49,180 nt of DNA from Roseburia sp. (lineage in GTDB: Bacteria > Bacillota > Clostridia > Lachnospirales > Lachnospiraceae). The notes below the pieces were generated by a model. That model worked only from the letters and a program-made list of their open reading frames with translations, did not search any database and had not been told where the DNA came from. Each line of letters starts with the position of its first letter. Position 1 is the stretch's first letter. The translations under genes were made by a program, and so were the position numbers. Below are positions 27,478 through 48,219 of the stretch, piece after piece. Where the stretch lies: the NCBI GenBank assembly GCA_023662875.1, contig JAMPIG010000016.1:1-49180 (forward strand). The letters are read 5' to 3'.

Positions 27478-28410
27478 ATGAGAAAAATGCAGACCCCTAA
27501 CGCATCGAACGCCTCCAGCGCACTGAACAACCCCAGCGCACCGAGCAGCCCCGGTGCACCAGCCCCCTACCTCCAAGCCACTGGCGAACTGCCTTTTACG
27601 CTGACTAACGATTACATGTTCCGGGCGTTTCTACAGACGAACAATAACGTCCTGCGGCACCTGACCTGCTCCCTGCTGCGCCTCCGCCCGGAGGAAGTAG
27701 AAGAAGTGAGGATCGAAAACCCTATCGAAATGGGGAAAACGCCGGGAGACAAGGAATTTGTTTTGGACGTAAAGATTTCCCTGAACAACCGGCGGATAAT
27801 CAATTACGAGATGCAGGTGATTCCCCGGGGAGACTGGCCGGAGAGGAGCCTGGTATACCTTTGCCGACAGTTTGACAGTCTCCACAAAGGGGATGCTTAT
27901 ACGAAGATTGAACCGGTCACGCATATCGGCTTCCTGGGCTTTACGCTCTTCAAGGACAAGCCGGAATTCTACGCTACTTATAAGATGTTAAATGTGAGAA
28001 ATCATAATCTTTATAGTGACAAGTTCACCCTTGGTGTGGTAGACTTAACTCAGATCGAGCTGGCTACGGAGGAGGACAGGGAATGGCGGACGGACTATTG
28101 GGCGTCCCTGTTCAAGGCCACCACCTGGGAGGAGGTAAAAAGGATGGCGGAGAAGGATACGATTATGGAAGATGCGGCGGATACTCTGCATCGATTGCTG
28201 CAGGACGACCGGGTCAGGGAGCAGTGCTGGGCGAGAGAGGATTATTACCGCACGATAAAGTGGTATGAGGATACGCAGAAAGAACAGGCCGCCGCCCTCG
28301 TAGAGAAGGATGTCGCCCTCGCAGAGCAGGCCGCCGAGATAGTGGAGAAGGATGCCGAGATTGCCCGCCTGCGGCGGCTTCTGGAAGAGAAGCAGGGAAA
28401 AAATTTATAA
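27478..28410 (+). CDS. Rpn family recombination-promoting nuclease/putative transposase
   Basis: 310 residues of the PD-(D/E)XK nuclease family (PDDEXK_2) annotated as Rpn or transposase-associated proteins. The core reads LTNDYMFRAFLQTNNNVLRHL, then DKEFVLDVKISLNNRRIINYEMQV with the likely catalytic Asp and E-x-Q, then R-x-L-x-Y. Rpn proteins are Mg/Ca-dependent DNA endonucleases that raise RecA-independent recombination; many copies occur per clostridial genome. The C-terminus is a coiled coil (VEKDVALAEQAAEIVEKDAEIARLRRLLEEK). The N-terminal Asn/Ser/Pro-rich 35 residues are low complexity. The ATG has GAGAGGAAAC upstream. Confidence 0.85.
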   Translation: MRKMQTPNASNASSALNNPSAPSSPGAPAPYLQATGELPFTLTNDYMFRAFLQTNNNVLRHLTCSLLRLRPEEVEEVRIENPIEMGKTPGDKEFVLDVKISLNNRRIINYEMQVIPRGDWPERSLVYLCRQFDSLHKGDAYTKIEPVTHIGFLGFTLFKDKPEFYATYKMLNVRNHNLYSDKFTLGVVDLTQIELATEEDREWRTDYWASLFKATTWEEVKRMAEKDTIMEDAADTLHRLLQDDRVREQCWAREDYYRTIKWYEDTQKEQAAALVEKDVALAEQAAEIVEKDAEIARLRRLLEEKQGKNL

Positions 28411-28431: not shown

Positions 28432-28478
28432 TTTGACGATTTCTTTGACGCTTTTTTTGACGGCAAAAATGCTATCGT
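28432..28478 (+). promoter_or_regulatory. Heptamer array A: three TTTGACG at 12-nt period, then a -10-like hexamer
   Basis: TTTGACG occurs at 28432-28438, 28444-28450 and 28456-28462, each exactly 12 nt apart. Ten nt after the last copy is TATCGT (28473-28478). Evenly spaced heptamers on one face of the helix close to a -10 are the binding pattern of OmpR-fold activators, including the SARP/BTAD class; such a regulator is encoded at 46972-48219. Confidence 0.6.
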
Positions 28479-28616
28479 TATGTAGTGATAAAAGGGCGCG
28501 GTATGCCATAGTATGCCCTGGAGGGTGTCGGATAGCGGCATATTCCGGGTTTTTGGGACGAAAAGAAGGGAAACCGTCGCAAAAAAATTTAAAAGTTACC
28601 TGAATTTGTTAATTTT

Positions 28617-28651
28617 TTTGACGCTTCTCTTGACCGCCCGTTTGTTATAGT
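28617..28651 (+). promoter_or_regulatory. Heptamer array B and -10 for the surface locus
   Basis: TTTGACG (28617-28623) and CTTGACC (28629-28635) are again 12 nt apart, and TATAGT (28646-28651, preceded by TGT as in an extended -10) again follows after exactly 10 nt. The predicted transcript would start about 25 nt before the coiled-coil gene at 28683. Confidence 0.6.
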
Positions 28652-28682: not shown

Positions 28683-29339
28683 ATGGAAAATATAACCGAA
28701 AAAGAATTTTCAAAGCTGAAACGCCGCGACCTGCTGGAACTGCTACTCTCTCAGATTCAGGAAGACGACCGGTTGGAGCGCAAGGGCAACATTATGGCGG
28801 TACGAATCGCCAGGCAGGAAAAGAGCCTGACGCGCCTGAAGGAAAAGCTGGATGAGAAAGACGCGCAGATCGGAAATCTGAAGAGCAAGCTGGGCGAGAA
28901 GGACGAACAGATTGAAAAGCTGAAGAGTAAGCTGGACGAGAAGGACGCGCAGCTTGAAAAGCTGAAAAGGCGACTGGACGAGAAGGACAAAGAGCTTGCC
29001 GAGACGCAGGAAACCCTGCAGGCGGAACGCGAATCGAGGCAGATTGATATTATGGAGGCGGGCTCCATCGCGAACGCAGCCCTGAAGCTGAGCGGTATCT
29101 TCGAAGCGGCGCAGGACGCAGCCAACCGCTACCTGGAGAACCTGCAGGCGCGGACGGCGCGAGCGGGATTCACCGCCACCGGCGAGGCCCCACCAACCGC
29201 CAGCGAAACGCAGGCAGCCGCCAACGGCGAGACACCATCAACCGCCAGCGAAACGCAGGCAGCGGCCAACGGCGATGCCCCATCAACCGCCAGCGAGGCG
29301 CACTCAACCGCCGACGAACCGTCGACAGCCGCCGGTTGA
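28683..29339 (+). CDS. Coiled-coil protein with 14-residue repeats
   Basis: 218 residues, no signal peptide or membrane helix. An N-terminal helical region (residues 1-50) leads into four 14-residue coiled-coil repeats of the KLDEKDAQIEKLKS type (residues 55-110). A conserved-looking segment follows (DIMEAGSIANAALKLSGIF EAAQDAANRYL region), then three 15-residue repeats (TASETQAAANGE-type) to the end. Function unknown. As the first gene downstream of heptamer array B it may be a cytosolic scaffold for the secretion genes that follow, but nothing proves this. The same EKDAEI coil motif ends the Rpn protein upstream. The ribosome site is weak (GGGAG about 15 nt away). Confidence 0.75.
   Translation: MENITEKEFSKLKRRDLLELLLSQIQEDDRLERKGNIMAVRIARQEKSLTRLKEKLDEKDAQIGNLKSKLGEKDEQIEKLKSKLDEKDAQLEKLKRRLDEKDKELAETQETLQAERESRQIDIMEAGSIANAALKLSGIFEAAQDAANRYLENLQARTARAGFTATGEAPPTASETQAAANGETPSTASETQAAANGDAPSTASEAHSTADEPSTAAG
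28845..29012 (+). repeat. 42-bp coding repeats (coiled coil), 4 copies
   Basis: Units at 28845, 28887, 28929 and 28971 encode KLDEKDAQIGNLKS and three variants; DNA similarity is high between copies 1 and 3. Confidence 0.8.
29181..29315 (+). repeat. 45-bp coding repeats (tail), 3 copies
   Basis: Units at 29181, 29226 and 29271 start with GGCGA and encode 15 residues with TASETQAAAN. They lie in the C-terminal tail of the coiled-coil protein. Confidence 0.9.
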
Positions 29340-29378: not shown

Positions 29379-29960
29379 ATGGCAATCACTGACAGCAGAA
29401 TACCCTCTGCGGAAATCGTAGAAAAGCAGCTGCAGAAATCAAAGAGAAGACGCCTGATCTTCCAGCGGGCGATCGTTACGATCGGCGTACTGGCAACAGT
29501 AGCCGCGGCGGCGGTAATTATCGCAGTACTTTTCTTACAGGTATTTAAAATAGAAGGAAGATCGATGGCCGAGACCCTGCAGGAAGGGGATCTCGTCGTC
29601 GTCGAAGGGATATCAGGATTTCAGAAAGGCGACGTCGTCGCCTGCTACTACGGAAACGACGTGCTCGTCAAGCGGATCATCGCGACGGCGGGCGATACCG
29701 TTGAGATAGATGAGGAAGGCAACGTAACCGTAAACGGGGAATCGCTCGAAGAACCCTACGTCCGCGACAAGACGATCGGAAACTGCAATATCGAATTCCC
29801 CTGTACCGTACCGGAGGGCAGCAACTTCGTCCTCGGCGACTGCAGGTCGGTATCCATCGACTCCCGCAGCTCCGCAATCGGCTGTATCGAGGACAGAAAC
29901 ATTATCGGAAGAGTCATCTTCCGGATCTGGCCCATCGGCAGCGCGGGCAAGGTCAAATGA
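29379..29960 (+). CDS. lepB: Signal peptidase I (Ser/Lys type)
   Basis: 193-residue membrane-anchored serine protease that removes signal peptides of Sec-exported proteins. A basic N-terminus and one membrane helix (about residues 30-52) precede the catalytic Ser62 in EGRSMAETL. The catalytic Lys98 is in VLVKRIIATAGD. The GDNRxxSxDSR box appears as LGDCRSVSIDSRS, with Cys in place of Asn. AGGAGGT precedes the ATG. It lies directly before the giant adhesin and is presumably dedicated to this locus; the genome will have another general SPase. The second, Ser/His-type peptidase at 45136 suggests two separate substrate classes. Confidence 0.93.
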   Translation: MAITDSRIPSAEIVEKQLQKSKRRRLIFQRAIVTIGVLATVAAAAVIIAVLFLQVFKIEGRSMAETLQEGDLVVVEGISGFQKGDVVACYYGNDVLVKRIIATAGDTVEIDEEGNVTVNGESLEEPYVRDKTIGNCNIEFPCTVPEGSNFVLGDCRSVSIDSRSSAIGCIEDRNIIGRVIFRIWPIGSAGKVK

Positions 29961-30079: not shown

Positions 30080-33000
30080 ATGGGAAATTTGGTAATCAAT
30101 CAGGCTGCAAAATTCTTGCGTGAGAGACGTAATACACGAAGGTGGATAGCGATTGTTCTCTGCCTGGCGCTGGTCGTTACATCAGGAACCTTCAGCGCCC
30201 TGACAAGACAGGGCCGCGCGCTGAGCGATACGAGCCGCAAGCTTGAATGCGCTTACGAAGTGCATCAACATACAGAAGATTGCTATAACGAAGCGGGAGA
30301 AGCCGTATGCGGATACGCGGATTACTGTGTGCATACCCATGCGGAAAACTGCTACGACAGCGAGGGCGCTCTCGTCTGCGCGCTGCCGGAAATCACGGCG
30401 CACGTCCACGACGAGTCCTGCTACGTCCCGGTGCAGACCGTGCAGAAGCTCCTGACCTGCAGCCAGGAGGAAACGACGGGCCATATTCATACGGACGACT
30501 GCTACGCAACCGAACAGGGCGAGCTGACCTGCGGCCTGGAAGAGCATCAGCATAATGACGGCTGCTATACCGTAACAGAGGATGTCAGCGGAAACGACGC
30601 CGCTGCAACCCTGATCTGCGAACAGGAAGAGCATACCCACGAAGACGGATGCTACGAGCAGAACACCGTCCTGACCTGCGAGACCGAAGAAGGCGCGGGC
30701 GCGCATCAGCATACCGACGACTGCTATACGGAAGCAGCGCCGGACGTCAGCGGAAACGATTTCAGCGGCACAGTAATCTGCGGCCAGCCGGAGCTTCATA
30801 CGCATGACGACAGCTGTTTCTTATCCGAGGACGAAGCGCACATCAGCCCGATCTGCGGGAAAATAGTTCTGGAGGAGCACGTTCATAACGACGATTGCTT
30901 CGCAACCGTATTCGAAGGCTTCGAGCTTACCGCTGAGGCGGTGGGCGTAACCCTTACCGTCAGCGTAACGGAGGAAGGCGTCCTTCCTGAGAATGCGACC
31001 GTTACCGTAGCTCCGATCGAACAGACCGAGGCGGGCGACAACGCGATTTATAATCAGATTCAGACCGGCCTGCAGACAGCCGTTGCCGAGAACACGGCGA
31101 TGGAGATGCTGTACTTTAAGGCTTATGAGATTCAGTTCTACGCGCTGAACGCGGAGGGCGTAAACGAGCGCATCCAGCCGCAGGGCGAAGTATCCGTAAG
31201 GCTCGACTTTGACAACGCGGCGCTCCCTGCGGAGATCGCGGAGAAGGATTCCATCCAGGTCGCGGGCGTAAAGCTTGCGGAGCTGAAGATTGCCGAGGTC
31301 GGCTATACGGCGGAGCTGAGAGACGACGCTTCGATTACGGCCGACGAAAATGTAACCCTGCAGACAGCGGAATTCAGCCTGACCCAGAGCGGCCCTGTCG
31401 CGGTATCCTGGATCGGTGAGCGGAACAAGTATTACTACGAGGATGACCAGGTCATCGTTACCGTCAGCGCGGCAGAAGACGGAATTATCCCGGAGGGCGC
31501 AAGCCTTCAGGTTATCCCGATCGTCGCACCGGACGAGAGATATATTCAGGTGGCGGAAAAGCTGATGGAGAAGGCCGAGAGCGAGGAGTACGATATCGCG
31601 GGCTTCCTGGCTTACGATATCTATTTCGCAGACGAGAACGGCGTTGAGATCGAGCCCAAAGGCGAAGTTAAGGTTACCATGGACTATAAGTACGCGGCTA
31701 CGCCGGAAACGCTGGATCAGTCGAACTTTGCCCTGCTGAACGAGATGGACGAAGAGACGGCGGAGGAAGTCGCAGAAGAAGCTCCCGCAGCGGCAGCGCC
31801 GATGCGCGCTCCGGCGAGACGCCCCGCTGCGGCGGCGGAGGCTCCGGAAGCGGAAGAGCCTGCGGCGGAGATTGACGCAGCTCCTGTTGAGATTACGGAT
31901 GATTCCGAGGGTGCGGCTACAACTCTTGGCGTTACCATTATGCACTTCGCTGAGGATGAGAACGGAGAGATTACGGTAGTAGACCTTGGCGCGGAGAATA
32001 AGGTTGAAACACTGGAGACTACGGAAGAACTGGCTGTTGAGAAGGCGGAGTTTGTAACGGATGGGTTTTCGATATTTGCAGTTACATGGAGTGCTTATAG
32101 TATAAGTGTAGAAATAAGATATGTTGAAGAAGATGAACATGGTAAGTATGTTCCTTTAGATGAAAGTTTGGTTTCGCATGATGCTGTCACGATGCGAGGT
32201 CGCAATATAATAGATTTTGCTAGTGAGGAGTATAAGCAAGCTGTCTCGGGTTATACGTTTGAAAGAATAGAAGCTTATAATGGTCGACAAATTAGCAAAC
32301 TTTCTGTGATTGAGCATGACCGGTACGGCTGGTCCGGTCATGCTTATACGACCAATGATCTTTGCTATGATACAGGCTATTGGGATGCAGATTCTGAAGG
32401 AAATGGGGTTTGGAACAAATTACCTTCATCTGCGAATGCAGGCAGTGCGACTAGCAGCACTGATGACGTTTGGGAAGAATGGGATTCTACTACTAAAATT
32501 GTCTATATTGTTTATAGAAAGACTCAAACGGGGACTGCGAACCCGGCAGAAGAACTTGGTGAACCGGATCACTCAAAGTATGTGAAGTACAATTCGGATA
32601 CAAAGGACTATACTTTGACACTGGACGTGACCGGGAAAACCGCGGGAACTGAGGCAGGGGTTGATGTGCTGCTGGTGCTTGATACGTCTGGTAGTATGGG
32701 CAATGCTGGTACAGAGGCGGGAGGCTATTATAATCTCCTTCCTCGTCTTAAGGAGATAGTAGGAACTCCTGATAGTCAGAGTAGCGATACAGTTATTGAT
32801 ACTATTTTAACCGATGGTTCGAAGAACAGAATGGCCTTGATCAGTTTTGCTAATAGCGCTAGCTTGAAAAAGGATTGGTGTGACGATACGAGCAAGAAAG
32901 ACTTGAAGAAGGCTGTTAAGGAGCTTTCGGCAAGTGGCGGTACTAATTGGTCTAATGCTATGTCTAAAGCAGAGGACACTTTAAAAAGTGCAGGGGGTAA

Positions 33001-36000
33001 TAATCAAAAGGTTGTAATTTTTGTATCGGATGGCGCACCTGGCGAGCGTGGCTATAGTAGTAGTTATTTTGAGAACGCATGTAACACTGTTAAAAATTCA
33101 ACGTACTTGAAAGACGCCAAGGTTTATTCGGTATATTTAACAACAGGCACAAGCACAGCGATGATCAATTTCGCTGGGTATATGAAGATGTATGGCATCG
33201 ATGCAGAAGCGATTGATGGAACTCAGGATATGAGTGGCACCATCATGAATGATGTGTTATCTTCGTTCATTTCTACCTACAGCGAAGTTGTGATTGCGGA
33301 TAAGCTGAGTGATTATGCGGAGTTTAGTCTGCCTGAGGGAGCAAGTGAACCTATGTTCACGGTGACCTACAAGAATGGAACTACGACAAAGACGTTTGAG
33401 CCGCGTACTGCTGGCGAGTATAATGAGGACGGCGTCAAGTATGAAATTACACGCAACGATAAGTCGGTTGTCTTTAAGGTATATGGCAAAGCAACAGGCA
33501 AGAAGGACGATAATGATGAGCCGATCTATGCGCTAGAGAATGGTGCCACCTATAGTATCAGCTATAATATTAAGACGTCAGAAAAAGCTGAGAGCGAGTA
33601 TAAAGCCACGGGTAATCCGGAGGGGATTTTCGGAGAAGAGACAACGGACGCCCCTGGAAACAGTACGAGCGTAGGGAAGAGAGGATTCCGTTCTAACGAA
33701 GGAGAAGGCGCTACGATTTCTTACAGCGAGAACGGTAAGGACAGTACACTAGGAACGAATTATAAGCATCCTGTAATTCAGACCCAGGCGGAGATTAATG
33801 ACAATCTGCTTCAAGTAGATAAAACTGCCAAGGTGAAGGATTGGTATGAGAGAACCTATGACATTACCATAACGGCGCAGTCTAAGGCGAAAGGAAGCGA
33901 AACGACAACAACTACGACGAATGCAGAGGTTATGCTGGTGCTGGATATGTCGTCTTCTATGTGTTTGAAAGCACAAGCGACTGATGAGAGTTTTGAACCG
34001 ACGTTTTTGGGTAACTTTGCAGCTGTCAAATCGACTTTGGATGAGTCGAAGATTTACTATAAAAATAAACAGGGTTATCAGAGTGGGTATCATACGCCTA
34101 AGAGGAGAGATGATAATAATCGGGTGGATAAAGGAGGTTATGGGTACGAATGGGATAATACAGATAAAGGAGTTTATAACTATTTAAAATATCCTATGGT
34201 TTACGTAAATGATATCTGGCAGTATTATGATGGTTCAAAATGGGTAACTGTTAAGGATACCGATCCGGTTGCTCAGTGGGATTCTCGCTTGACCGTGTTG
34301 AAGGAGAATATGATTGAGTTTATTAATCAACAGTCTTCAAACACAAAGGTAGGAGTGATTAGTTTCAGCGAGTCAGGATCAGCCAAGAATGAGTTTAGTT
34401 TTGCTGAATTGGCGGGCGAGAAGAGAACTGATTGCATCAAGAGTATTGCCAAGATGTATACAGATGGGGGGACTTATATAAATGATGCCTTGCAGACAGC
34501 AGGGAATACGCTGAGTACAGCAAAAAATGCGGGTTCAGACGCGAATCAGTACATTATTGTGTTCTGCGATGGTAATGTGAGTGATGGCGAAAATACAGTA
34601 ACCAATACGGCGAAAACTATTAAAGACAGAGGAGTAACAATTTACACAATAAGCTTTGGGGGTGATTTCGAAAAACTGGAGAATGTTCCATCTGATCCTA
34701 AGACTAAATATAAGTTAAGCGCATCGGATACCTCAAGCTTGAATACTGCACTTGGCGGCATCACGACAGAGATTAATAATTTTGATGCTGACATTGAAAA
34801 TGCAAAAGTTATTGATGTAATAGACCCTCGCTTTGAACTGGTCGATGTGAATGGGGTTCCGCTTAAGGATGGAGACGAGTATTACGGCGGTGTCATCAAG
34901 ACTATCGATAACAAACAGTGCATTGAATGGACTGGGGTAACGTTACCGAATTTGGCTAAGGAGGGTAATACTGAACCTTGGTCGAGAACAATAACCGTTA
35001 AAGCAAAAGATGGGTTTATCGGGGGAAACAATGTGCCGACCAACGTATCGCCGGATTCCAAGGTTATAGTCGGAAAGGACATTGGAAAGGAACTTCCGTT
35101 GCCGCATGTGAATGTTAAGATATCGAAGTCTGAGGCGGAAAAGACGGTAACGATCTATAAGGGCGACACTGTACCGACGGATGCTTCAATCTTTGAAGAT
35201 ATCTTAAGCGAGGCGAAGTTTGGAGAGTATTCCTTGCCTGAAGGTGTTAGCAATGATCTTAAATGGAATTTGTATGAGGTAAATGAAACGACGGAAACCA
35301 AGATTACAGAGGCCAGAAACCTGGATGACATAGGGGATGCATTGAAAGATGTAAAACCTGACTCAACGAAGGTTTATAAGTTGAAGGTAACCTACAACGC
35401 AGGAGACTGGACGGATTCAAGCAACGCTAATACAACTATTTCGGATAAGGTGTATTATAACGGTGATGAAGCAAGCGGACAGCATGAGGTAACGGTTTTC
35501 CAGGCAACCTATACAGTTAATGTTATCTCCGGAAGTTTGGCGATTGAAAAGGAGCTTACCGTCCCTACTGCAAAACAAACAGGCGAAACCTTTAGCTTTA
35601 CGGTAAAGAGACGGGTAGAAAGCCAGGTCGATACGGCAGAAGCTGAGGATAGCGAAGTAGATGCGCAGGCTGCGGAAGTCGAGGTTGGGACAACGGGCGC
35701 TGACGAAGCAGGAAGCCAGACAGCTGCCACACCGGAAGTAACGGAAGAGGTAGTCGCGATAGTAGAGATCACTGTTCCTGCGGGAAGTACAACCGGAACT
35801 GTTTCATCTATTAAGGACGCTGATGGGAAGGAAATTCCCGCTTCTGCTCTGTCGGAGCTCCCTCGGGGCGTGTATGTTATTGAAGAGGATGCTAAAGCTG
35901 GCTATGCGCTGAAGGATCTGCAAGCTGTAAAAACTGAGACGAATTGCTATAGTAGCGTACAGGATGGAAGAATTACATTTAAGCTGGGATATGATGTAGC

Positions 36001-36697
36001 AGGTGAGAATGTAATAAAACCTGAGTATAAGCAGACAGAGGATGCGTCCGGAAAATTGGTTGACTTTGTTGGAGCGGATGGCGAGAAGGTTATAATCGGC
36101 CGCAAGTACGCGGAAGCTGACGGCGGTAAAGTAGGTAAAGCGGAATTTACGAACGAACCGGTCTTTGACAACTGGAGTGTTGTAAAGTTAAGCAGCAGCG
36201 ATACCGTCGACAAGTCCTTAACTCTGGAAGGTGCAAGATTTGAGCTGACAAGAGCAGAAACGGACAGCATATCGGCCAAGACTTATGTTGGTATATCGAA
36301 TGCAAGTGGAGAGCTTGAGTGGTATGAAGCGGATGGTGAAACCAAACTTCGAGAAGGCGAAAAGCTGGAGGCTGGTACTTATATCTTGAGTGAGGCGAAA
36401 GCACCGGCAGGATATTCCAGAAGTGAGGTTACATGGACGCTTGAAATTACAGCGAACGGCTCGTTAAAGGCAATACCTAACGGAGTGGAAAGCAATAAGG
36501 GTTCGGATTATGAGGCGACTAACGAGCTGAAGCTTTACTTCTACAACGACGCTGTATACGCCCTTCCTAGCGCGGGCGGCGAAGGAATCTATTGGTATTC
36601 GATCGGAGGCACACTGCTGATGTTGGCAGGAGCACTGATCTTATATAAAAACAAAAAAAGGGAAGAGGAGGTATCGGCGAGCAAAAGGAAATATTAA
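30080..36697 (+). CDS. Giant LPxTG-type adhesin with C-HxH-C repeats and two VWA domains
   Basis: 2205-residue wall-anchored surface protein, probably the fibre-tip or ancillary pilin. In order: long signal peptide (about 1-48, RRWIAIVLCLALVVTSG); nine C-x(n)-HxHxxxC[YF] units (about 53-275); two beta-rich segments (about 278-445 and 450-570); an Ala/Pro/Glu linker (559-609). VWA domain 1 has MIDAS DTSGSM at 868-873, and VWA domain 2 has DMSSSM at 1289-1294. Two Cna/SpaA-like domains follow (about 1812-2017, 2027-2154). The sorting signal is LPSAGG from 2162, then a membrane helix and KNKKR tail; the T of LPxTG is replaced by A. GC content drops sharply near 32070 and recovers near 36550. It lies upstream of the major pilin and its sortases, fitting a VWA tip adhesin such as RrgA/GBS104 types. 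Confidence 0.9.
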   Translation: MGNLVINQAAKFLRERRNTRRWIAIVLCLALVVTSGTFSALTRQGRALSDTSRKLECAYEVHQHTEDCYNEAGEAVCGYADYCVHTHAENCYDSEGALVCALPEITAHVHDESCYVPVQTVQKLLTCSQEETTGHIHTDDCYATEQGELTCGLEEHQHNDGCYTVTEDVSGNDAAATLICEQEEHTHEDGCYEQNTVLTCETEEGAGAHQHTDDCYTEAAPDVSGNDFSGTVICGQPELHTHDDSCFLSEDEAHISPICGKIVLEEHVHNDDCFATVFEGFELTAEAVGVTLTVSVTEEGVLPENATVTVAPIEQTEAGDNAIYNQIQTGLQTAVAENTAMEMLYFKAYEIQFYALNAEGVNERIQPQGEVSVRLDFDNAALPAEIAEKDSIQVAGVKLAELKIAEVGYTAELRDDASITADENVTLQTAEFSLTQSGPVAVSWIGERNKYYYEDDQVIVTVSAAEDGIIPEGASLQVIPIVAPDERYIQVAEKLMEKAESEEYDIAGFLAYDIYFADENGVEIEPKGEVKVTMDYKYAATPETLDQSNFALLNEMDEETAEEVAEEAPAAAAPMRAPARRPAAAAEAPEAEEPAAEIDAAPVEITDDSEGAATTLGVTIMHFAEDENGEITVVDLGAENKVETLETTEELAVEKAEFVTDGFSIFAVTWSAYSISVEIRYVEEDEHGKYVPLDESLVSHDAVTMRGRNIIDFASEEYKQAVSGYTFERIEAYNGRQISKLSVIEHDRYGWSGHAYTTNDLCYDTGYWDADSEGNGVWNKLPSSANAGSATSSTDDVWEEWDSTTKIVYIVYRKTQTGTANPAEELGEPDHSKYVKYNSDTKDYTLTLDVTGKTAGTEAGVDVLLVLDTSGSMGNAGTEAGGYYNLLPRLKEIVGTPDSQSSDTVIDTILTDGSKNRMALISFANSASLKKDWCDDTSKKDLKKAVKELSASGGTNWSNAMSKAEDTLKSAGGNNQKVVIFVSDGAPGERGYSSSYFENACNTVKNSTYLKDAKVYSVYLTTGTSTAMINFAGYMKMYGIDAEAIDGTQDMSGTIMNDVLSSFISTYSEVVIADKLSDYAEFSLPEGASEPMFTVTYKNGTTTKTFEPRTAGEYNEDGVKYEITRNDKSVVFKVYGKATGKKDDNDEPIYALENGATYSISYNIKTSEKAESEYKATGNPEGIFGEETTDAPGNSTSVGKRGFRSNEGEGATISYSENGKDSTLGTNYKHPVIQTQAEINDNLLQVDKTAKVKDWYERTYDITITAQSKAKGSETTTTTTNAEVMLVLDMSSSMCLKAQATDESFEPTFLGNFAAVKSTLDESKIYYKNKQGYQSGYHTPKRRDDNNRVDKGGYGYEWDNTDKGVYNYLKYPMVYVNDIWQYYDGSKWVTVKDTDPVAQWDSRLTVLKENMIEFINQQSSNTKVGVISFSESGSAKNEFSFAELAGEKRTDCIKSIAKMYTDGGTYINDALQTAGNTLSTAKNAGSDANQYIIVFCDGNVSDGENTVTNTAKTIKDRGVTIYTISFGGDFEKLENVPSDPKTKYKLSASDTSSLNTALGGITTEINNFDADIENAKVIDVIDPRFELVDVNGVPLKDGDEYYGGVIKTIDNKQCIEWTGVTLPNLAKEGNTEPWSRTITVKAKDGFIGGNNVPTNVSPDSKVIVGKDIGKELPLPHVNVKISKSEAEKTVTIYKGDTVPTDASIFEDILSEAKFGEYSLPEGVSNDLKWNLYEVNETTETKITEARNLDDIGDALKDVKPDSTKVYKLKVTYNAGDWTDSSNANTTISDKVYYNGDEASGQHEVTVFQATYTVNVISGSLAIEKELTVPTAKQTGETFSFTVKRRVESQVDTAEAEDSEVDAQAAEVEVGTTGADEAGSQTAATPEVTEEVVAIVEITVPAGSTTGTVSSIKDADGKEIPASALSELPRGVYVIEEDAKAGYALKDLQAVKTETNCYSSVQDGRITFKLGYDVAGENVIKPEYKQTEDASGKLVDFVGADGEKVIIGRKYAEADGGKVGKAEFTNEPVFDNWSVVKLSSSDTVDKSLTLEGARFELTRAETDSISAKTYVGISNASGELEWYEADGETKLREGEKLEAGTYILSEAKAPAGYSRSEVTWTLEITANGSLKAIPNGVESNKGSDYEATNELKLYFYNDAVYALPSAGGEGIYWYSIGGTLLMLAGALILYKNKKREEEVSASKRKY

Positions 36698-36840: not shown

Positions 36841-38430
36841 ATGAAAAAGATGAAGAAGTTTTTAGCCATGTTCCTTGCAATGGCGATGGTGCTGGGAATG
36901 TCGTTGACGGCGCTGGCGGATGAGACGGCAGATGAGCCTGCAAAAATCAGCATTGTAAATTATCCTGATGGAGCAGACGATGCAGAAGTGAAGTACGATC
37001 AGATTATTGTAGAAGACAGAACTTCAGCGTTAGGCTGGAAATTTGAGGATGCTTTTCAAGATGCGTTTGTTAAAGCCTATTTGCAGAAGGAAACAGTTGC
37101 AGCTGGTGATGTAGATAAAGTTATAGCTGCGTTGATTGAAAATGGCAGACTCGAAGATGTTAATGGGCTGGTGGAGGAAGGCGAGGTTAATGACAGTGAG
37201 CCATTCGCAAGAGCCTTAGATGCAATTAAGAATATGCTTGGGAAGACACCCGATAACTCGAGTATTCCGGCTACAGCGATTGGCTTGTATGTAATTAATG
37301 TGCAGAAAACGGGATATACGTTTATTCCTATGGCGGTCTATGTTGGTACAGAATTTACTGGTGTAAAAGCTTCTGTAAAGGGTTCTAAGGATCAGGTTAA
37401 GAAGGAACTGGTTGGTACAGATGGTGCATCGGTATCTGAGGGCGATGAAGTAGAATATAAAGTAACAGCGCAGTATCCGTATTACTCGGCGAATGAAACT
37501 ACTACCACATTTGTTATAACAGATACATTAACCAATGCTGCTTTTAAGATGGTTGATAAAGTGGTAACCGAAGAAGTAGAAGGAGAAACTGTAACAAAGA
37601 CCGAAAAAGTAGCTGATGTTACTGTAAAGATTAATGGCGAGACTGTAACCACAGGATATACTCTTGCAACATCTAATAATGGTAGCGTACTCACTATTAC
37701 TTTTGACTATAACAACGATTATGCAGGCGACACAGTAGAAATTACTTATACTGCGATAGCAGGCGATGTAAGTAGTGTAGCAGGTATGAAGAATGAAGTA
37801 TCTTCTACCCTTAAGTCTGGTAGTACAACAGCTACAGTAGAGTCCGATACTGTTACCTTTACAGTGACGAAGCTCGGTGATGCTGGTGCAAAACTTGGCG
37901 GTGCTGGTTTCACTGTTTATGAAAAGGTTGCAGAGGCTACCACAGCTGATGCTCCTGAAAATACAGAAAAACTTGCTTTGATTAATAACAATAATACCGA
38001 TGACGAAGCTGATGATGTGTATGCTTGGGGAAAATCTCTTGGAGAGAGATTTACTGCGGAAACTGATGTTGCAGCTACAGCTAATACACCGGCTATTGCG
38101 AAAGGTGAAGTAACTTTCGATGGGCTGGATGCTCAGAAGACATATTATGTAAAGGAGACAACAGCTCCTTATGGATATTCCCTGAATGAGACTGTATATC
38201 AGTTAACGAGGGATACCACTAACGATAGCATCGATACAACAAGTACCCCTAATGTTACAGTGTATCATTTCACTAACTTTAATGGTCAAGATGTTACCGA
38301 CACCAAGCTCAACGCCCTTCCTTCCACCGGTGGCATCGGTACAACGATCTTCACGATCGGCGGCTGTGCAATCATGGTAGTAGCGGCAGGCCTCTTCTTC
38401 GCAACCCGTAAGAAATCTTCCGAGAAGTAA
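36841..38430 (+). CDS. Major pilin (isopeptide-forming fimbrial shaft protein)
   Basis: 529 residues. Signal peptide MKKMKKFLAMFLAMAMVLG to about residue 26 (ALADE). An N-terminal domain ends in IGLYVINVQKTGYTFIPM. A D2-type fimbrial isopeptide domain follows (SEGDEVEYKVTAQYPYY, TFVITDTLTNAAF), then a SpaA/Cna-type domain with an E-box (YYVKETTAPYGYS, Glu439). The sorting signal LPSTGG starts at residue 493 and is followed by a hydrophobic helix and RKKSSEK. This is the standard plan of a sortase-polymerised pilin shaft. The pilin-motif lysine is not certain; K in NVQKTGY is a candidate. Two class C sortases follow at once. The ends of the gene are GC-rich, the middle AT-rich. Confidence 0.93.
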   Translation: MKKMKKFLAMFLAMAMVLGMSLTALADETADEPAKISIVNYPDGADDAEVKYDQIIVEDRTSALGWKFEDAFQDAFVKAYLQKETVAAGDVDKVIAALIENGRLEDVNGLVEEGEVNDSEPFARALDAIKNMLGKTPDNSSIPATAIGLYVINVQKTGYTFIPMAVYVGTEFTGVKASVKGSKDQVKKELVGTDGASVSEGDEVEYKVTAQYPYYSANETTTTFVITDTLTNAAFKMVDKVVTEEVEGETVTKTEKVADVTVKINGETVTTGYTLATSNNGSVLTITFDYNNDYAGDTVEITYTAIAGDVSSVAGMKNEVSSTLKSGSTTATVESDTVTFTVTKLGDAGAKLGGAGFTVYEKVAEATTADAPENTEKLALINNNNTDDEADDVYAWGKSLGERFTAETDVAATANTPAIAKGEVTFDGLDAQKTYYVKETTAPYGYSLNETVYQLTRDTTNDSIDTTSTPNVTVYHFTNFNGQDVTDTKLNALPSTGGIGTTIFTIGGCAIMVVAAGLFFATRKKSSEK

Positions 38431-38528: not shown

Positions 38529-39464
38529 ATGAAAAAGGTAATAAAATTTATTTTCGTTCCCATCCTGTTTCTCGCCGGTCTGTCCCTGCTGCTGTATCCG
38601 TTTATCTCGAACCAGTGGAATAATTACCGCCAGTCCCAGCTGATCAACAGCTACGACGAGACGGTAGCCGAGATGGAAAGCTCCGGCGCGATTGATTACG
38701 ACGCGGAGTGGGAGCGGGCGCAGGACTTTAACGAAAGCCTTGTCCCTTATATCCTTCCCGATTCCTTCGCGATAGCCGAGGCGACAGAGGAGAACCAGGA
38801 ATACCTGAGCTGCCTGAACCTGACCGGCGACGAGATGATGGGGTATGTAGAGATTCCGAAGATCAACGTAAAGATTCCGATCTATCATACGACGACGGAG
38901 GAAGTTTTACAGACAGCGGCGGGCCATCTGGAGGGGAGCTCCCTTCCGGTAGGCGGGGAGAGTACCCACGCAGTGATTTCGGCCCATCGGGGTCTGCCCA
39001 GCGCGGCGCTCTTTACTGATCTGGATCGTCTGGAAGAGGGAGATTATTTCCTCCTCTATATCCTGAACGAAGTCCTCTGTTATCAGGTAGACCAGACGAC
39101 GACCGTTGAGCCGACGGAGACGGAAGCGCTTTCGGTAGTAGAGGGCGAGGATCTGGTAACGCTCCTGACCTGTACGCCTTACGGCGTCAACAGTCACAGG
39201 CTCTTAGTCCGGGGCCACAGGGTTCCCTACGAGCCGAAGGAGGTTGAGCAGAGCGTACCTGGCGGCGGTTTGATCGCGGCTCCCAGTATACGGACGAATT
39301 ACCTGCTTTGGGTGATGATCGGGCTGGGAACGACCTTTGTCTTTATTCTGATTCTTTATTTTCTGGACAGGAAGCGGCGCAGGAAGCTGGCGGTAAGGCC
39401 GAAAGAGGCGGCCGTCGGAGACTTCGAGGTGGTAGACCTGGAGGAAGAGGACGGAGGGCAGTAA
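38529..39464 (+). CDS. Class C sortase 1 (pilin polymerase)
   Basis: 311-residue membrane transpeptidase that joins pilin subunits through the LPxTG threonine and a pilin lysine. N-terminal helix (about residues 5-25), then the SrtC signature WNNYRQSQLINSYDE. The core reads MGYVEIPKINVKIPIYH. Catalytic His153 is in SAHRGLPSA, Cys215 in LLTCTPYGVN and Arg224 in NSHRLLVRGHR. A second, C-terminal helix (about 257-280) followed by RKRRRK is typical of class C. No clear DPF/W lid motif was seen. AAGGAGA precedes the ATG. It is paralogous to the next gene. Confidence 0.95.
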   Translation: MKKVIKFIFVPILFLAGLSLLLYPFISNQWNNYRQSQLINSYDETVAEMESSGAIDYDAEWERAQDFNESLVPYILPDSFAIAEATEENQEYLSCLNLTGDEMMGYVEIPKINVKIPIYHTTTEEVLQTAAGHLEGSSLPVGGESTHAVISAHRGLPSAALFTDLDRLEEGDYFLLYILNEVLCYQVDQTTTVEPTETEALSVVEGEDLVTLLTCTPYGVNSHRLLVRGHRVPYEPKEVEQSVPGGGLIAAPSIRTNYLLWVMIGLGTTFVFILILYFLDRKRRRKLAVRPKEAAVGDFEVVDLEEEDGGQ

Positions 39465-39498: not shown

Positions 39499-40182
39499 AT
39501 GGCAAGGAAGATTACAGGTGTGCTGTTTGTCCTCCTGTTTGTAGTGGGGTTGGGAATCCTGCTTTACCCGACGATTTCTGACCGGTGGAACGCCTACCGC
39601 CAGTCCCAGCTGATTTCGAATTACGAGGAGGCTGTAGCGCAGTTGGATCCGGAGACTCACGAGGAGATGTGGGTGCAGGCCCAGCAGTACAACGCGGGCC
39701 TCTGGCTCAAGGCGAATCGGTATGAGATGACCGACGAAGAGCGGGCGGAGTACGAGGGATGCCTGAATCTGGAGGGAAACGGAATCATGGGTTCGATCGA
39801 GATTCCGAAGATTAAATGTACGCTGCCGATTTACCACGGGACGGAGGAAGATGTATTACAGATCGCGGTAGGGCACTTAGAGGGAACCTCGCTTCCCGTC
39901 GGGGGAGAAGGAGTCCATTGCGTACTATCCGGCCATCGTGGCCTGCCCTCTGCAAAGCTTTTTACGAATCTGGATCAGCTGGAGATAGGAGATACCTTCC
40001 TGCTGAAGATTCTGGGGGAAACCCTGACCTACGAGATCGACCAGATCCTGACGGTTCTGCCGGAGGAGATGGAATCGCTGGAGCTGTTTGAAGGGGAAGA
40101 CTATTGTACCCTGGTAACCTGTACCCCCTACGGCGTCAACAGCCACAGGCTGCTGGTTCGGGGGAAGCGGGTCGCGGAGTAA
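39499..40182 (+). CDS. Class C sortase 2
   Basis: 227-residue paralog of the preceding sortase (shared WNAYRQSQLISNYEE, IPKIKCTLPIYHGT, NSHRLLVRGKR). Catalytic His146 is in SGHRGLPSA and Cys208 in LVTCTPYGVN; the Arg follows in NSHR. Unlike sortase 1 it stops right after the catalytic Arg strand and lacks the C-terminal membrane helix. It may therefore act on a different subunit, for example adding the tip or base pilin. It has an AAGGAG ribosome site. Confidence 0.94.
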   Translation: MARKITGVLFVLLFVVGLGILLYPTISDRWNAYRQSQLISNYEEAVAQLDPETHEEMWVQAQQYNAGLWLKANRYEMTDEERAEYEGCLNLEGNGIMGSIEIPKIKCTLPIYHGTEEDVLQIAVGHLEGTSLPVGGEGVHCVLSGHRGLPSAKLFTNLDQLEIGDTFLLKILGETLTYEIDQILTVLPEEMESLELFEGEDYCTLVTCTPYGVNSHRLLVRGKRVAE

Positions 40183-45135: not shown

Positions 45136-45708
45136 ATGGGAAACGGGGAATTATCCCGGAAGGAATCCGGGGATATTGCGAAGGATAAGGACGAAGAGAC
45201 ACAGGAAAAAGATACAAAACAGAGCGGCAGAAAGATCGCTTCTCATATCTGCCGTATAGCGGGAACAGTAATGATATTCGCTGTCGTTCTGGCCTGCCTC
45301 CCCGTCGCCGTGGCCCGGATCCGCGGCTGGCAGGTCTACCATGTCGTCAGCGGAAGCATGGAACCTCAAATCCCGATCGGAAGCCTCGTCTTCGCGGAGC
45401 CGGTTCCGCCCCGGGATATTCAGGCGGGAGACGTTATCGCTTTCTGGAGCGGAGGCTCCGTTATCGTCCACCGAGTGACCGAAAACCTCGCGGAGACGAG
45501 CGAGTTTTCGACGAAGGGCGACGCAAATACCGCGGAAGATATCCGCAAGACAAGCTATGCCGAATTAATCGGCCGCATAGCATATCATATCCCGTTCGCG
45601 GGCGCGCTCGTCACCTTGTATACGGACGCGAAGGGGCGCATATACGCCCTCTGCCTGGCAGCCTGCGGCGCGCTGCTGAACCTGCTGGCCGGGCGGCTGA
45701 GACGTTGA
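45136..45708 (+). CDS. sipW: SipW-type signal peptidase I (Ser/His)
   Basis: 190-residue membrane signal peptidase of the ER/archaeal type. A polar N-terminal segment (about 1-35) precedes a membrane helix (about 40-60). The catalytic Ser74 is in VVSGSMEPQIPIGS. The position of the bacterial Lys is taken by His112 in VIVHRVTEN, the hallmark of SipW. The acidic box is in TKGDANTAED. A second hydrophobic segment (about 165-185) lies at the C-terminus. It should process the SipW-type precursors encoded just upstream, as in Bacillus tapA-sipW-tasA. Confidence 0.93.
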   Translation: MGNGELSRKESGDIAKDKDEETQEKDTKQSGRKIASHICRIAGTVMIFAVVLACLPVAVARIRGWQVYHVVSGSMEPQIPIGSLVFAEPVPPRDIQAGDVIAFWSGGSVIVHRVTENLAETSEFSTKGDANTAEDIRKTSYAELIGRIAYHIPFAGALVTLYTDAKGRIYALCLAACGALLNLLAGRLRR

Positions 45709-46064: not shown

Positions 46065-46883
46065 ATGGCGAAATGGATCCGCAGGATACTGCTGCTCATA
46101 TTGCTGGCAGTCTTCCTCTTCTCAATCGCATACATAGCCGTCATCTACTATCAGTATCGCGCCAACGACAGACTGTATGAGGAAATGGCGAAGCAGTTTA
46201 CCCTGCCCGTCAGCAGCCCGCTCCCGGAGCAGGGAGGCGAAGGCGGACAGACGGCGGATGACGGAGAAGCACAGCCGTCGGGCCTGCCCCCGATTTCCGT
46301 CGATTTTGAGGCGCTTAAGGGTCTGAACGAGGATATTATCGGGTGGCTGCACTGCGAAGGGACTGTGATCGATTACCCGGTTTTAAAGGGCGACAATAAC
46401 GACCAGTACCTCCGCCATAACTACGCGGGAGAGCGTGTTTCCGCCGGTTCGATTTTTGTAGAAGAAAAAAACCGCGAAAATCTTGAGGATTCTAATATTA
46501 TTATTTACGGTCACCACATGCGGAACGGCTCTATGTTCGCCTGCCTGGACGAGTACCAGGAGCAGGATTTCTATGAGGAGCATCCTGTAATGTGGCTGCT
46601 GACTCCGGAGCAGGACTATCGAATCCGGATTTTCAGCGCCTATACGACCTCTGGCTACTCAGATACCTATACGATCTACATGGGCCCCGGGGACGACCTG
46701 AAGGAATATTTGTTGAACTGCCTTTCCCAATCGGTATTCCAGTCGGAGATCGACGGGAAGGAGCTGGACGGGAGAGGAAAATATGTAGTCCTTTCGACAT
46801 GCGCCTACGATTTTGAGGATGCCAGATTTGTAGTCCACGGAATTATGGAGCCGGTCGAGAGCGCAGGCGGGAAGCCGCGATAG
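46065..46883 (+). CDS. Class B sortase
   Basis: 272-residue membrane transpeptidase. N-terminal helix (about residues 7-28), Pro/Gly-rich spacer, then the SrtB core: NEDIIGWLHCEGTVIDYPVL, DNNDQYLRHNY, catalytic His in IIIYGHHMRNGSMF (about 147-160), Cys246 in VLSTCAYDF and Arg in EDARFVVHG. Class B sortases attach NPQTN-type proteins or, in pilus loci, anchor the finished fibre to peptidoglycan. Since no other housekeeping sortase is in the window, a wall-anchoring role for this locus is plausible. AGAAAGGTGAG precedes the ATG. Confidence 0.95.
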   Translation: MAKWIRRILLLILLAVFLFSIAYIAVIYYQYRANDRLYEEMAKQFTLPVSSPLPEQGGEGGQTADDGEAQPSGLPPISVDFEALKGLNEDIIGWLHCEGTVIDYPVLKGDNNDQYLRHNYAGERVSAGSIFVEEKNRENLEDSNIIIYGHHMRNGSMFACLDEYQEQDFYEEHPVMWLLTPEQDYRIRIFSAYTTSGYSDTYTIYMGPGDDLKEYLLNCLSQSVFQSEIDGKELDGRGKYVVLSTCAYDFEDARFVVHGIMEPVESAGGKPR

Positions 46884-46971: not shown

Positions 46972-48219
46972 ATGATCCAGGAAGACGGAACGCTATACGT
47001 TCAGATGTTTAATGGCTTTGCTATGTTTTGGAACGGAGAGCTGGTTACAGGAAGCGCGAAATCCAGTGAGTCGCAGTTCATGTACCTGATGCAGCTCCTT
47101 CTCCATAACAGACGCGACGGCGTGCGCAGAGAGGAATTGGAGCAGGTACTGTTCCAGGATAGGGACATTGCGGATACGCGACATGCCCTGCGAAGCGTGA
47201 TTTACAACGCGAGGAAGAGATTGCTGCAGGCTGGGCTGCCGGAGGGAGAGTATGTTGTTCAGAAGAAGGGTGTTTACTATTGGGGTGCCCCGGTGCCGGT
47301 AAGGGAGGACGCGGAGGAATTTGAGGAGGCTTATAAAGCCGCGGAGACCAGCGATGACAATGATGAAAAGCTGAGGCTGTATTTGAAAGCCTGCTATAGC
47401 TATACCGGTGATTTTCTGGCGAACCAGGCAGCCGTTCTCTGGGTAGCGCAGGAGGCAAACCGTTACAGAAAGATTTTTTCCGCCTGCGTCGAAAGGGCAG
47501 CCGTTCTCCTGCGTGAGAACGAAGAGTTCCGCCAGATGAAAGAGCTGGGGATTCGAGCGTCCAAAATTAATCCGCTGTCCGATTGGGAAACCGTTACCAT
47601 GGAAGCCCTGATTGCCATGGGACAGTACGAGGAGGCCCAGAAGCTCTATAGCGATACGGTTGAGCTCTACTTTCGGGAGCAGGGACTCCGGCCGTCAGGC
47701 AAGATGACAAAATTTTTCAATGAACTCGGCTCACAGATGAACCAGCGGTACGATACCCTTGATAATATCCAGGAGAACCTGGAGCAGGGGATGGGAGACG
47801 GCCAGGGCGGATATGTGTGCCCCTATCCGGTATTCGTAGGGATCTACCATATGATGATGCATATGATGGATCGCGGCGGACAGTCCGTTTTCCTGATGCT
47901 CTGCAGAATCGTAGACAGCAAGGGTAACCCCATGAAAGAGGGAAATAGCCTGGACGAGCTCACAGAGCGGCTGGGCGAAGCGATCAAACAGTCCACCCGC
48001 CGCAGCGACGTGATCACAAAGCATGGCAAAGGCCAGTATCTCGTCATCCTGCTGAACACGACCCGGGAAAACTGCGATATCGTAAAGAAACGTATCAACT
48101 GGCGTTTTATGGTGGGCAGACAGCGCACCGGCGTTCAATATTATGTAAACAGTGTATTCTCCACCCCGCGCTCGGCGGAAGATGTATTTGAGGCGGAGAA
48201 AAAGAAGAAGAACGGATAG
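46972..48219 (+). CDS. BTAD/SARP-type transcriptional regulator with degenerate GGDEF-like C-terminus
   Basis: 415 residues, cytosolic. The N-terminal winged-helix domain of OmpR/SARP type (FNGFAMFWNGELV to GEYVVQKKGVYYW, about residues 8-100) is followed by the TPR-like bacterial transcriptional activation domain (about 105-245). The C-terminal about 130 residues align in pattern with a GGDEF domain: SVFLMLCRIVD, then RRSDVITKHGKGQYLVILL where the active GG[DE]EF is GKGQY. It is thus catalytically dead but may bind a nucleotide or another domain. The ATG at 46972 is preferred; a TTG at 46954 would add six residues. It likely controls the surface locus, perhaps through the heptamers at 28432-28651. 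Confidence 0.85.
   Translation: MIQEDGTLYVQMFNGFAMFWNGELVTGSAKSSESQFMYLMQLLLHNRRDGVRREELEQVLFQDRDIADTRHALRSVIYNARKRLLQAGLPEGEYVVQKKGVYYWGAPVPVREDAEEFEEAYKAAETSDDNDEKLRLYLKACYSYTGDFLANQAAVLWVAQEANRYRKIFSACVERAAVLLRENEEFRQMKELGIRASKINPLSDWETVTMEALIAMGQYEEAQKLYSDTVELYFREQGLRPSGKMTKFFNELGSQMNQRYDTLDNIQENLEQGMGDGQGGYVCPYPVFVGIYHMMMHMMDRGGQSVFLMLCRIVDSKGNPMKEGNSLDELTERLGEAIKQSTRRSDVITKHGKGQYLVILLNTTRENCDIVKKRINWRFMVGRQRTGVQYYVNSVFSTPRSAEDVFEAEKKKKNG

Follow-up and report, generated by a model that had tools for sequence, protein, structure and literature searches.

SARPs are known mostly from the antibiotic clusters of actinomycetes. In the excerpted text of a review (PMC10972967), they are likewise mostly activators of such clusters, and excerpts of PMC10936776 describe their sites as repeats that lie 11 or 22 bp apart in promoters without a good -35, the 3' repeat standing 8 bp from the -10. 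For AfsR of Streptomyces coelicolor, represented in the PDB at the afsS promoter (8hvr, 8k60), the same excerpts centre the afs box at -29.5, start its second repeat at -29 and name the residues R87, T88, S91, R92, R94 and K95, of which T88 and R92 contact bases. PimR, a SARP-LAL regulator of Streptomyces, has two operators at a single target promoter, one of three heptamers and one of two, and binds with one monomer per heptamer; its spacers are 4 and 3 nt long (11- and 10-nt units), and its main operator does not overlap the -35 (excerpts of PMC5930380). In EmbR of Mycobacterium tuberculosis (2fez, 2ff4), a SARP-like N-terminus is joined to a C-terminal sensory domain, given as FHA in the excerpts of PMC10936776. 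None of the literature matches listed concerned BTAD regulators of pili or the repeats described here.

The window, by which we mean the whole 49,180-nt stretch of Roseburia sp. DNA that was analysed, carries a sortase-pilus locus on its forward strand. The first gene after the promoter encodes a coiled-coil protein (28683..29339), relatives of which adjoin the same promoter in other species, and it is followed by genes for an S26 signal peptidase (29379..29960), a 2205-aa LPXTG surface protein with VWA and SpaA domains (30080..36697), a SpaH/EbpB-type LPXTG major pilin (36841..38430) and two sortases (38529..39464 and 39499..40182). Several proteins without a firm family are encoded on the same strand between the second sortase and a second S26 signal peptidase (45136..45708), which scored above the NCBIfam cut-off with an archaeal-type model and below the cut-off with the SipW model. 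A third sortase (46065..46883) then precedes P0002 (46972..48219), a BTAD/SARP-like regulator that is the last gene of the locus, on the strand of the pilus genes, and is the predicted binder of both operators described below. On the other side, adjoining the operator, we noted an Rpn/PD-(D/E)XK transposase-like gene at 27478-28410.

The original prediction had reported three TTTGACG heptamers at exact 12-nt spacing, a second set with the same spacing, and a TAT[AC]GTTA element 10 nt after the last heptamer of each set. Direct reading of the sequence confirmed all of these. Set 1 (28432..28478, forward strand) has TTTGACG starting at 28432, 28444 and 28456, while set 2 (28617..28651, forward strand) consists of TTTGACG at 28617 and CTTGACC at 28629, likewise 12 nt apart. 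Ten nucleotides past the last heptamer stand TATCGTTA at 28473 in set 1 and TATAGTTA at 28646 in set 2, so placed that the -10s are TATCGT (28473-28478) and TATAGT (28646-28651). We add to the earlier description that both -10s carry an upstream TGn, reading TGC TATCGT and TGT TATAGT, respectively. The ATG at 28683 lies 31 nt beyond the end of set 2, and the -10 of set 1 lies 173 nt upstream of that of set 2. Our main reading, to which we assign a probability of roughly 84%, is that the 12-nt-spaced heptamers would form the operator of the SARP-like activator encoded at 46972-48219, which would replace the -35 and switch on the pilus genes from 28683.

As one would expect if the repeats were chance or low-complexity T-rich sequence, T is abundant in the region and TTTGACG on its own shows no enrichment (10 copies in the window against 5.85 expected, with 9 of 100 shuffles reaching as many). 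Such an origin is of negligible probability. The window query, two TTGAC 12 nt apart placed 11 nt before TATNGTTA (TTGACN7TTGACN11TATNGTTA, up to 2 mismatches), matched only sets 1 and 2 in the window, and 0.00 matches were expected from 100 dinucleotide shuffles; in addition, the same promoter recurs in dozens of genomes, and period 12 alone is enriched at related loci, as detailed below. It is the spacing and the -10 that carry the signal, not lone TTTGACG. Across the window's own genome (3.72 Mb in 151 contigs, 92% complete), TTGACN7TTGACN11TANNNT with up to 1 mismatch gave 4 matches, of which sets 1 and 2 were perfect and the other two had one mismatch; the reversed control gave 1 forward and 2 reverse matches. 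A perfect pair, TTTGACGATTTCTTTGAC, on contig C96 was set aside since it lies inside an open reading frame and has no promoter, and on visual inspection the two matches on C72 and C86 likewise appeared to be coding.

The two sets differ in standing. Set 2 fits the family consensus and is, by sequence, a conserved candidate operator-promoter. No counterpart of the form of set 1, with TATCGT and three heptamers, was seen with an exact pattern, which would miss degenerate copies. On the family matrix set 1 scored 35.6, within the range of the sites from which the matrix was built (33.7-58.9) and above 24 null maxima of -23.7 to 5.4; it is probably an upstream copy of the candidate operator-promoter, with a secondary role.

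TTGAC agrees with the -35 consensus at five of six positions and is followed by a good -10, and the sets might therefore be read as ordinary sigma-70 promoters in which TTGAC is merely -35-like. We rejected this very unlikely reading on the spacers and on the hexamers at the usual distance. Between TTGACN and the -10 lie 10 nt for one heptamer and 22 nt for the other, and neither can thus be an ordinary -35; the same spacer lengths, instead of 16-18 nt, hold over 46 sites, for which they were fixed by the search pattern. The hexamers that do stand 16-18 nt before the -10 match TTGACA at only 0-3 of 6 bases in all 46 sites. Moreover, a single -35 would leave unexplained both the conserved duplicate 12 nt away and the other heptamers that occupy the same place in distant loci.

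The promoter is conserved. A search with the coiled-coil protein through 117 genomes found the same motif beside its relatives in three of them (L017, L039, L042). The strict pattern TTNGACN7TNGACN8TGNTATANT was found 14 times, in 10 of the 138 genomes searched in the genus, compared with 3 times for a control read backwards, and the form across the genus is TTWGACG-N5-TTWGAC-N8-TGnTATAnT. A tighter pattern retrieved 48 stretches among 84,980 genomes, 13 of which repeat loci already present in the genus scan; by record title, 47 come from Clostridia or groups within Clostridia and 1 from Anaerolineae. The original prediction had proposed a genome scan to test whether the motif precedes surface genes; tblastn of stretches up to 8 kb long placed a pilus-locus gene near the promoter in 40 of the 48, only a recombinase in 2 and neither in 6 (L103, L109, L114, L143, L147, L148). 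The matrix built from 46 distinct sites reads YTTWGACGYWTYYTTWGAC-N8-TGnTATAnT. The pattern provides a rule for finding promoters of uncharacterised pilus loci.

The motif occurs together with close relatives of the regulator. In the genus, a BTAD orthologue of at least 50% identity was present in 10 of the 138 genomes, which included 8 of the 10 motif genomes (p=7e-10). Motifs without a close BTAD were found in G058 (88% complete) and G019 (80% complete), and in G033 and G023 the BTAD gene lies on short contigs without the motif. Among 397 genomes sampled evenly across the family, the strict motif was found in 6 genomes (control 1), a BTAD of at least 43% identity in 14, from which a 145-residue fragment in G519 was left out, and both in 5 (p=1.5e-7). 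The sixth motif site of this sample lacks the heptamer G. Nine of the 14 BTAD genomes lack the strict motif, and three have TTGAT variants (G482, G533, G491). Among motif genomes reached by the DNA pattern, 27 of 30 encode a BTAD of at least 47% identity, the exceptions being L103, L143 and L147; the three identity cut-offs for a close BTAD (50%, 43% and 47%) were chosen after the lists had been seen. Both elements are present in 12 genomes of the genus and family scans, on one contig in 9 and there about 14-18 kb apart, and in two of these 9 (G026, G047) the promoter faces away from the operon. The link between regulator and target that the original prediction had drawn is supported by this co-occurrence (8/10 and 27/30 motif genomes), which could stem partly from co-inheritance of a locus. 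As a separate observation, L096 and L102 show the motif, a coiled-coil gene and a signal peptidase gene, followed by a BTAD of 24-25% identity; they have a second coiled-coil/signal-peptidase pair, and an RxxD pattern was not found in their BTADs.

OmpR-fold regulators besides SARPs bind direct repeats of near-helical period. The repeats could accordingly serve as operator for another regulator, such as an OmpR-type response regulator whose gene lies elsewhere, with the BTAD gene a mere passenger of the pilus locus, and linkage alone cannot single out the BTAD protein because the locus carries many linked genes. Close BTADs are, in addition, often without a consensus site upstream: with the family matrix, a site above 20 bits was present in 6 of 20 stretches (0.3-20 kb) upstream of close BTADs of 48-62% identity. 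Several of these stretches, though not most, end at contig ends; as they are mostly uncut, either the operator has drifted or the head of the operon lies elsewhere. A matrix scan of 40 stretches (L151-L190), mostly upstream of BTAD genes, gave more than 20 bits in 7 (L156, L173, L179, L183, L184, L187, L188), 6 of which belong to close BTADs. In the roughly 2.5 kb after the BTAD gene at 14 of the 20 loci, we found no consensus site, and period 12 did not stand out (2 sites at period 12, 4 at 13 and 2 at 14). Just after a close BTAD we noted, in two different genomes, a GGATAG...GGGATAG repeat of 12 nt with a -10-like hexamer (L280 near 143 and L285 near 87, BTAD-oriented), in a set where the count at period 12 is no higher than at other periods. 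All the same, a different regulator is an unlikely explanation, and three lines of evidence from diverged BTADs, given below, speak against it.

First, sites of the same geometry were found by walking from BTAD genes. We took 40 loci with BTADs 27-55% identical to P0002, going down the list of 61 matches outside the own genome, and assumed no heptamer: we counted as a site each 7-mer that recurred with 6 or 7 of its 7 bases identical, the repeat ending 9-11 nt ahead of a -10-like hexamer. In the 1500 nt past the BTAD stop, the sense strand yielded 23 sites of period 12, spread over 19 loci, and 0-2 for each other period from 8 to 18 (2 at period 11). On the antisense strand, the counts were 2 for period 12 and 0-4 for the others, and in the 1500 nt before the BTAD gene they were 3 and 0-4; dinucleotide shuffles yielded a mean of 0.54 period-12 sites and a maximum of 3 in 100 shuffles. 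The gap from heptamer to -10 peaks at 10 nt in these loci, and TGn precedes the -10 in 16 of the 23 period-12 sites, compared with 50 of 242 among all accepted -10s. In 17 of the 19 loci, the best period-12 site lies 53-759 nt after the BTAD stop, and three loci (L193, L200, L208) have two sites each, like the window. By the same rule, 21 of the 40 loci showed no period-12 site. The heptamers themselves differ and include TGTAATG, TGTAACG, AGTAACG, CGAAAGA/CGAAATA, CGAGGTA/CGAGATA, TGTGATA and TTTGATT. That the geometry is kept while the heptamer changes beside diverged BTADs (23 sites against 0-2) adds weight to the proposed regulator-target pair.

Second, the heptamer resembles those of the BTAD's relatives on the tree, even inside one genome. 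In the own genome, the BTAD gene on C96 has ATTAACG-N5-ATTAACC just past its stop, ahead of a pilus operon, and that on C64 has CGAGACA-N5-CGAGATA 1.5 kb past its stop, ahead of a very repetitive frame. The two BTADs on C118 have no period-12 site on the BTAD strand; a CGAGA-type operator was not found for the first of them, nor elsewhere in the own genome, with a pattern one nucleotide short of the C64 spacing. With regard to the surroundings of the C64 operator, an extremely repetitive frame occupies L233 9-2270 downstream of the CGAGAYA operator; the other strand probably encodes, judging by eye, a serine-rich repeat surface protein, and a gene beside the operator at L233 4328-5296 on the minus strand resembles, again by eye, the window's gene at 27478-28410. 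On a quick IQ-TREE tree of 55 BTADs, 28 of which were labelled by hand after the sites had been seen and with the matches in L199, L202, L216, L222 and L223 unlabelled, the heptamer class requires 5 changes (minimum 4), compared with a mean of 15.1 for shuffled labels and 0 of 200 shuffles as low. With mechanical labels (heptamer bases 4-5 in the 19 loci with sites within 1500 nt) plus 11 typed ones, 3 changes were needed against 10.4, again with 0 of 200 as low. The three rows of class NTTGATT do not cluster (43 of 500 shuffles as low), and the C64 heptamer, labelled GCGAGAC on the tree, is better read one nucleotide later as CGAGACA/CGAGATA. Three BTADs of the own genome fall in three parts of the tree and have three heptamers (TTTGACG, ATTAACG, CGAGAYA), each resembling those of its BTAD's tree neighbours; thus, the heptamer goes with the regulator and not with the genome.

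Third, the position that best separates the three large classes is a recognition-helix residue aligned with an AfsR base contact. By normalised mutual information over 24 rows, position 75 ranks best among positions 5-111 of the DNA-binding domain; positions 69-71 equal it in raw mutual information, and position 79 ranks seventh. Position 75 is S in TTWGACG, V or A in NNTAAYG and N in CGARRYA, and position 79 is N in TTWGACG, R (once Y) in NNTAAYG and R in CGARRYA. The profile alignment pairs positions 75 and 79 of P0002 with T88 and R92 of AfsR, and its AfsR stretch fits the residues named in the excerpts of PMC10936776. The third heptamer base is T or A where position 79 is N, and T in the NNTAAYG class, which is in line with the contact of AfsR R92 with that T as given in the excerpted source, in a register that assumes a transcript start 7 nt after the -10. 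One locus, L209, with TTTGATT beside an FNN helix, breaks the rule. Heptamer class follows the BTAD tree and changes jointly with the recognition helix, which further favours P0002 as the regulator and points to a readable regulator-operator code in which a few helix residues face a heptamer.

When the -10 is taken to start at -12, that is, with an assumed transcript start 7 nt after the -10, the 12-nt units span -41 to -30 and -29 to -18, so that the second repeat starts at about -29 and the centre, about -29.5, is that of the afs box. As in the AfsR system, paired direct repeats stand in place of a good -35. The 3' heptamer is 10 nt from the -10 as drawn, in a heptamer register uncertain by 1-2 nt, compared with the 8 bp of SARP sites. 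The triple and double operators of sets 1 and 2 are matched by those of PimR in the excerpts cited above, with 5-nt spacers here. The repeat unit differs from that of AfsR, being 12 nt and not 11 in the window and in the 46 TTWGAC sites (where the pattern fixed it), as does the extended -10; further differences are the degenerate GGDEF of P0002 in place of the NOD-TPR of AfsR, and the neighbouring genes, which are Lachnospiraceae sortase-pilus loci and not secondary-metabolite or antibiotic clusters. The suggestion of a SARP-type operator thus holds as regards two or three direct heptamer repeats that replace the -35, and fails as regards the period, which is neither of the classical 11 or 22 bp. 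Since SARP domains and a SARP-like manner of working are combined with a period outside the classical definition, we call this a SARP-like variant with a 12-nt period, in all likelihood a candidate controller of pili in Lachnospiraceae. In this major gut family, surface pili appear to be what the SARP architecture controls.

By analogy with AfsR, each heptamer would receive one protomer, so that two or more would line up head to tail over about -41 to -18 and, by recruiting sigma, stand in for the absent -35. The extended -10 promoter would then be switched on and the pilus genes transcribed from 28683, with set 2 as the main conserved promoter and set 1 as an extra triple site. The regulator gene comes last in the locus and shares its strand, so its product may also act on its own expression. 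What the sequences show is the arrangement with its conservation, the lack of a -35, the occurrence together with the regulator and the linked change of heptamer and recognition helix, whereas activation rather than repression, the length of the operon and this feedback are inferred only.

The claim that the window encodes a SARP/OmpR-fold protein at 46972-48219 was substantiated by domain and structure searches. BTAD (PF03704) scored 36.4 bits against a cut-off of 22.1, and Trans_reg_C (PF00486) reached 18.9 bits, under its cut-off of 26.2. An AlphaFold2 model from a 37-sequence alignment (pLDDT 84, pTM 0.58) shows a winged helix-turn-helix and a helical BTA domain, and a Foldseek search of the PDB ranks AfsR in transcription complexes (8k60, 8hvr) first, EmbR next and GGDEF proteins after them. 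AfsR, with which P0002 has the winged helix and BTA domain in common, matched with E values of 8e-10 to 2e-8, with a profile match over 5-251 and 18% identity in the structural alignment; EmbR matched with 3e-8, and differs in its targets as well as in its FHA C-terminus. P0002 is accordingly laid out as a winged helix (recognition helix 69-86), a BTA domain at 113-251 and a degenerate GGDEF-like C-terminus at about 285-395, and by this modelled order, an OmpR-type winged helix followed by BTAD, it is a predicted member of the SARP domain class.

The C-terminus scored 17.4 bits with the GGDEF Pfam model, under the cut-off, which some orthologues exceed, and GKGQY stands where GGDEF would be. 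R343, D346 and R374 are invariant in 37 of 37 aligned sequences, with a spacing identical to that of R359, D362 and R390, the residues of the PleD c-di-GMP inhibitory site in the excerpts of PMC7288161. An RxxD and a third arginine at the PleD spacing, together with a lost GGDEF, are the sequence marks of a c-di-GMP receptor, and P0002 is a possible one. A regular expression found RxxD in 44 of the 55 BTADs; the 11 others include G000C118b, G026C32 and G160C151, and at least 3 of the 11 (L194, L209, L213) show it in the alignment. In the own genome (92% complete), the two GGDEF proteins above the cut-off (L241 and L242; G000:C85 and C119) are both without a canonical GG[DE]EF, one reading DGDEF, which speaks against c-di-GMP gating. 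Among the BTAD-bearing relatives, in contrast, 11 of 12 have at least one canonical GGDEF motif in the loci read, which speaks for it. We regard gating of P0002 as a lead, and its GGDEF domain offers a specific c-di-GMP hypothesis.

A degenerate GGDEF with a triad like that of the I-site means that the activity of the BTAD protein could be gated, and it might then bind its sites chiefly as a repressor, or with a ligand deciding between activation and repression. This, too, seems improbable to us, as the sites take the place of the -35 without covering the -10, and as the paired units, under the assumed transcript start, share with the AfsR activator complex a centre at about -29.5. Returning to activation, we tentatively raise the possibility, doubtful as it is at present, that Lachnospiraceae have a large family of SARP-like activators fused to a catalytically dead GGDEF that binds c-di-GMP through its I-site. 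A few recognition-helix residues would let each paralogue read a heptamer of its own (TTWGACG, TTTGATT, TGTAATG and CGARRYA are examples), and one cell could draw on a single second-messenger pool to switch several pilus or adhesin loci independently, in some species with an invertible version of the same promoter ahead of them.

In fim-type switches, fimbrial promoters are invertible and served by tyrosine recombinases. The sister loci are alike in that the same promoter stands between inverted repeats, mostly beside a relative of tyrosine recombinases. Among 48 distinct sites, 12 are flanked by such repeats (19 or more of 22 bases matched; the best of the others reaches 17), and a wider search of 14 chosen sites added L110, L123 and L133 (18 of 18). 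In these 15 loci (also L090, L091, L092, L094, L095, L097, L101, L120, L121, L126, L127 and L148), whose repeat core is like TACCNCATAAT...ATTATGNGGTA, the promoter apparently lies inside an invertible segment. A tyrosine-recombinase match lies nearby in 13 of the 15, and that of L101, the one scanned, is XerC/D-like. In 8 loci, the promoter faces away from the pilus operon, and in 3 (L123, L127, L133) it faces into it, with the remaining 4 unassigned. Unlike these, the window has neither such repeats (best flanking arm match 14 of 22, and none of at least 15 of 18 in the wider search) nor a tblastn match to the recombinase of a sister locus, so that an invertible promoter in the window itself was ruled out; its promoter looks fixed ON. 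Some pilus-locus promoters are thus tied to an invertible switch in sister species. Finally, L110 and L123 lie on one contig (CAJTDB010000005.1) with identical promoters and inverted repeats in opposite orientation to the recombinase, representing either a real duplication or an assembly of both states.
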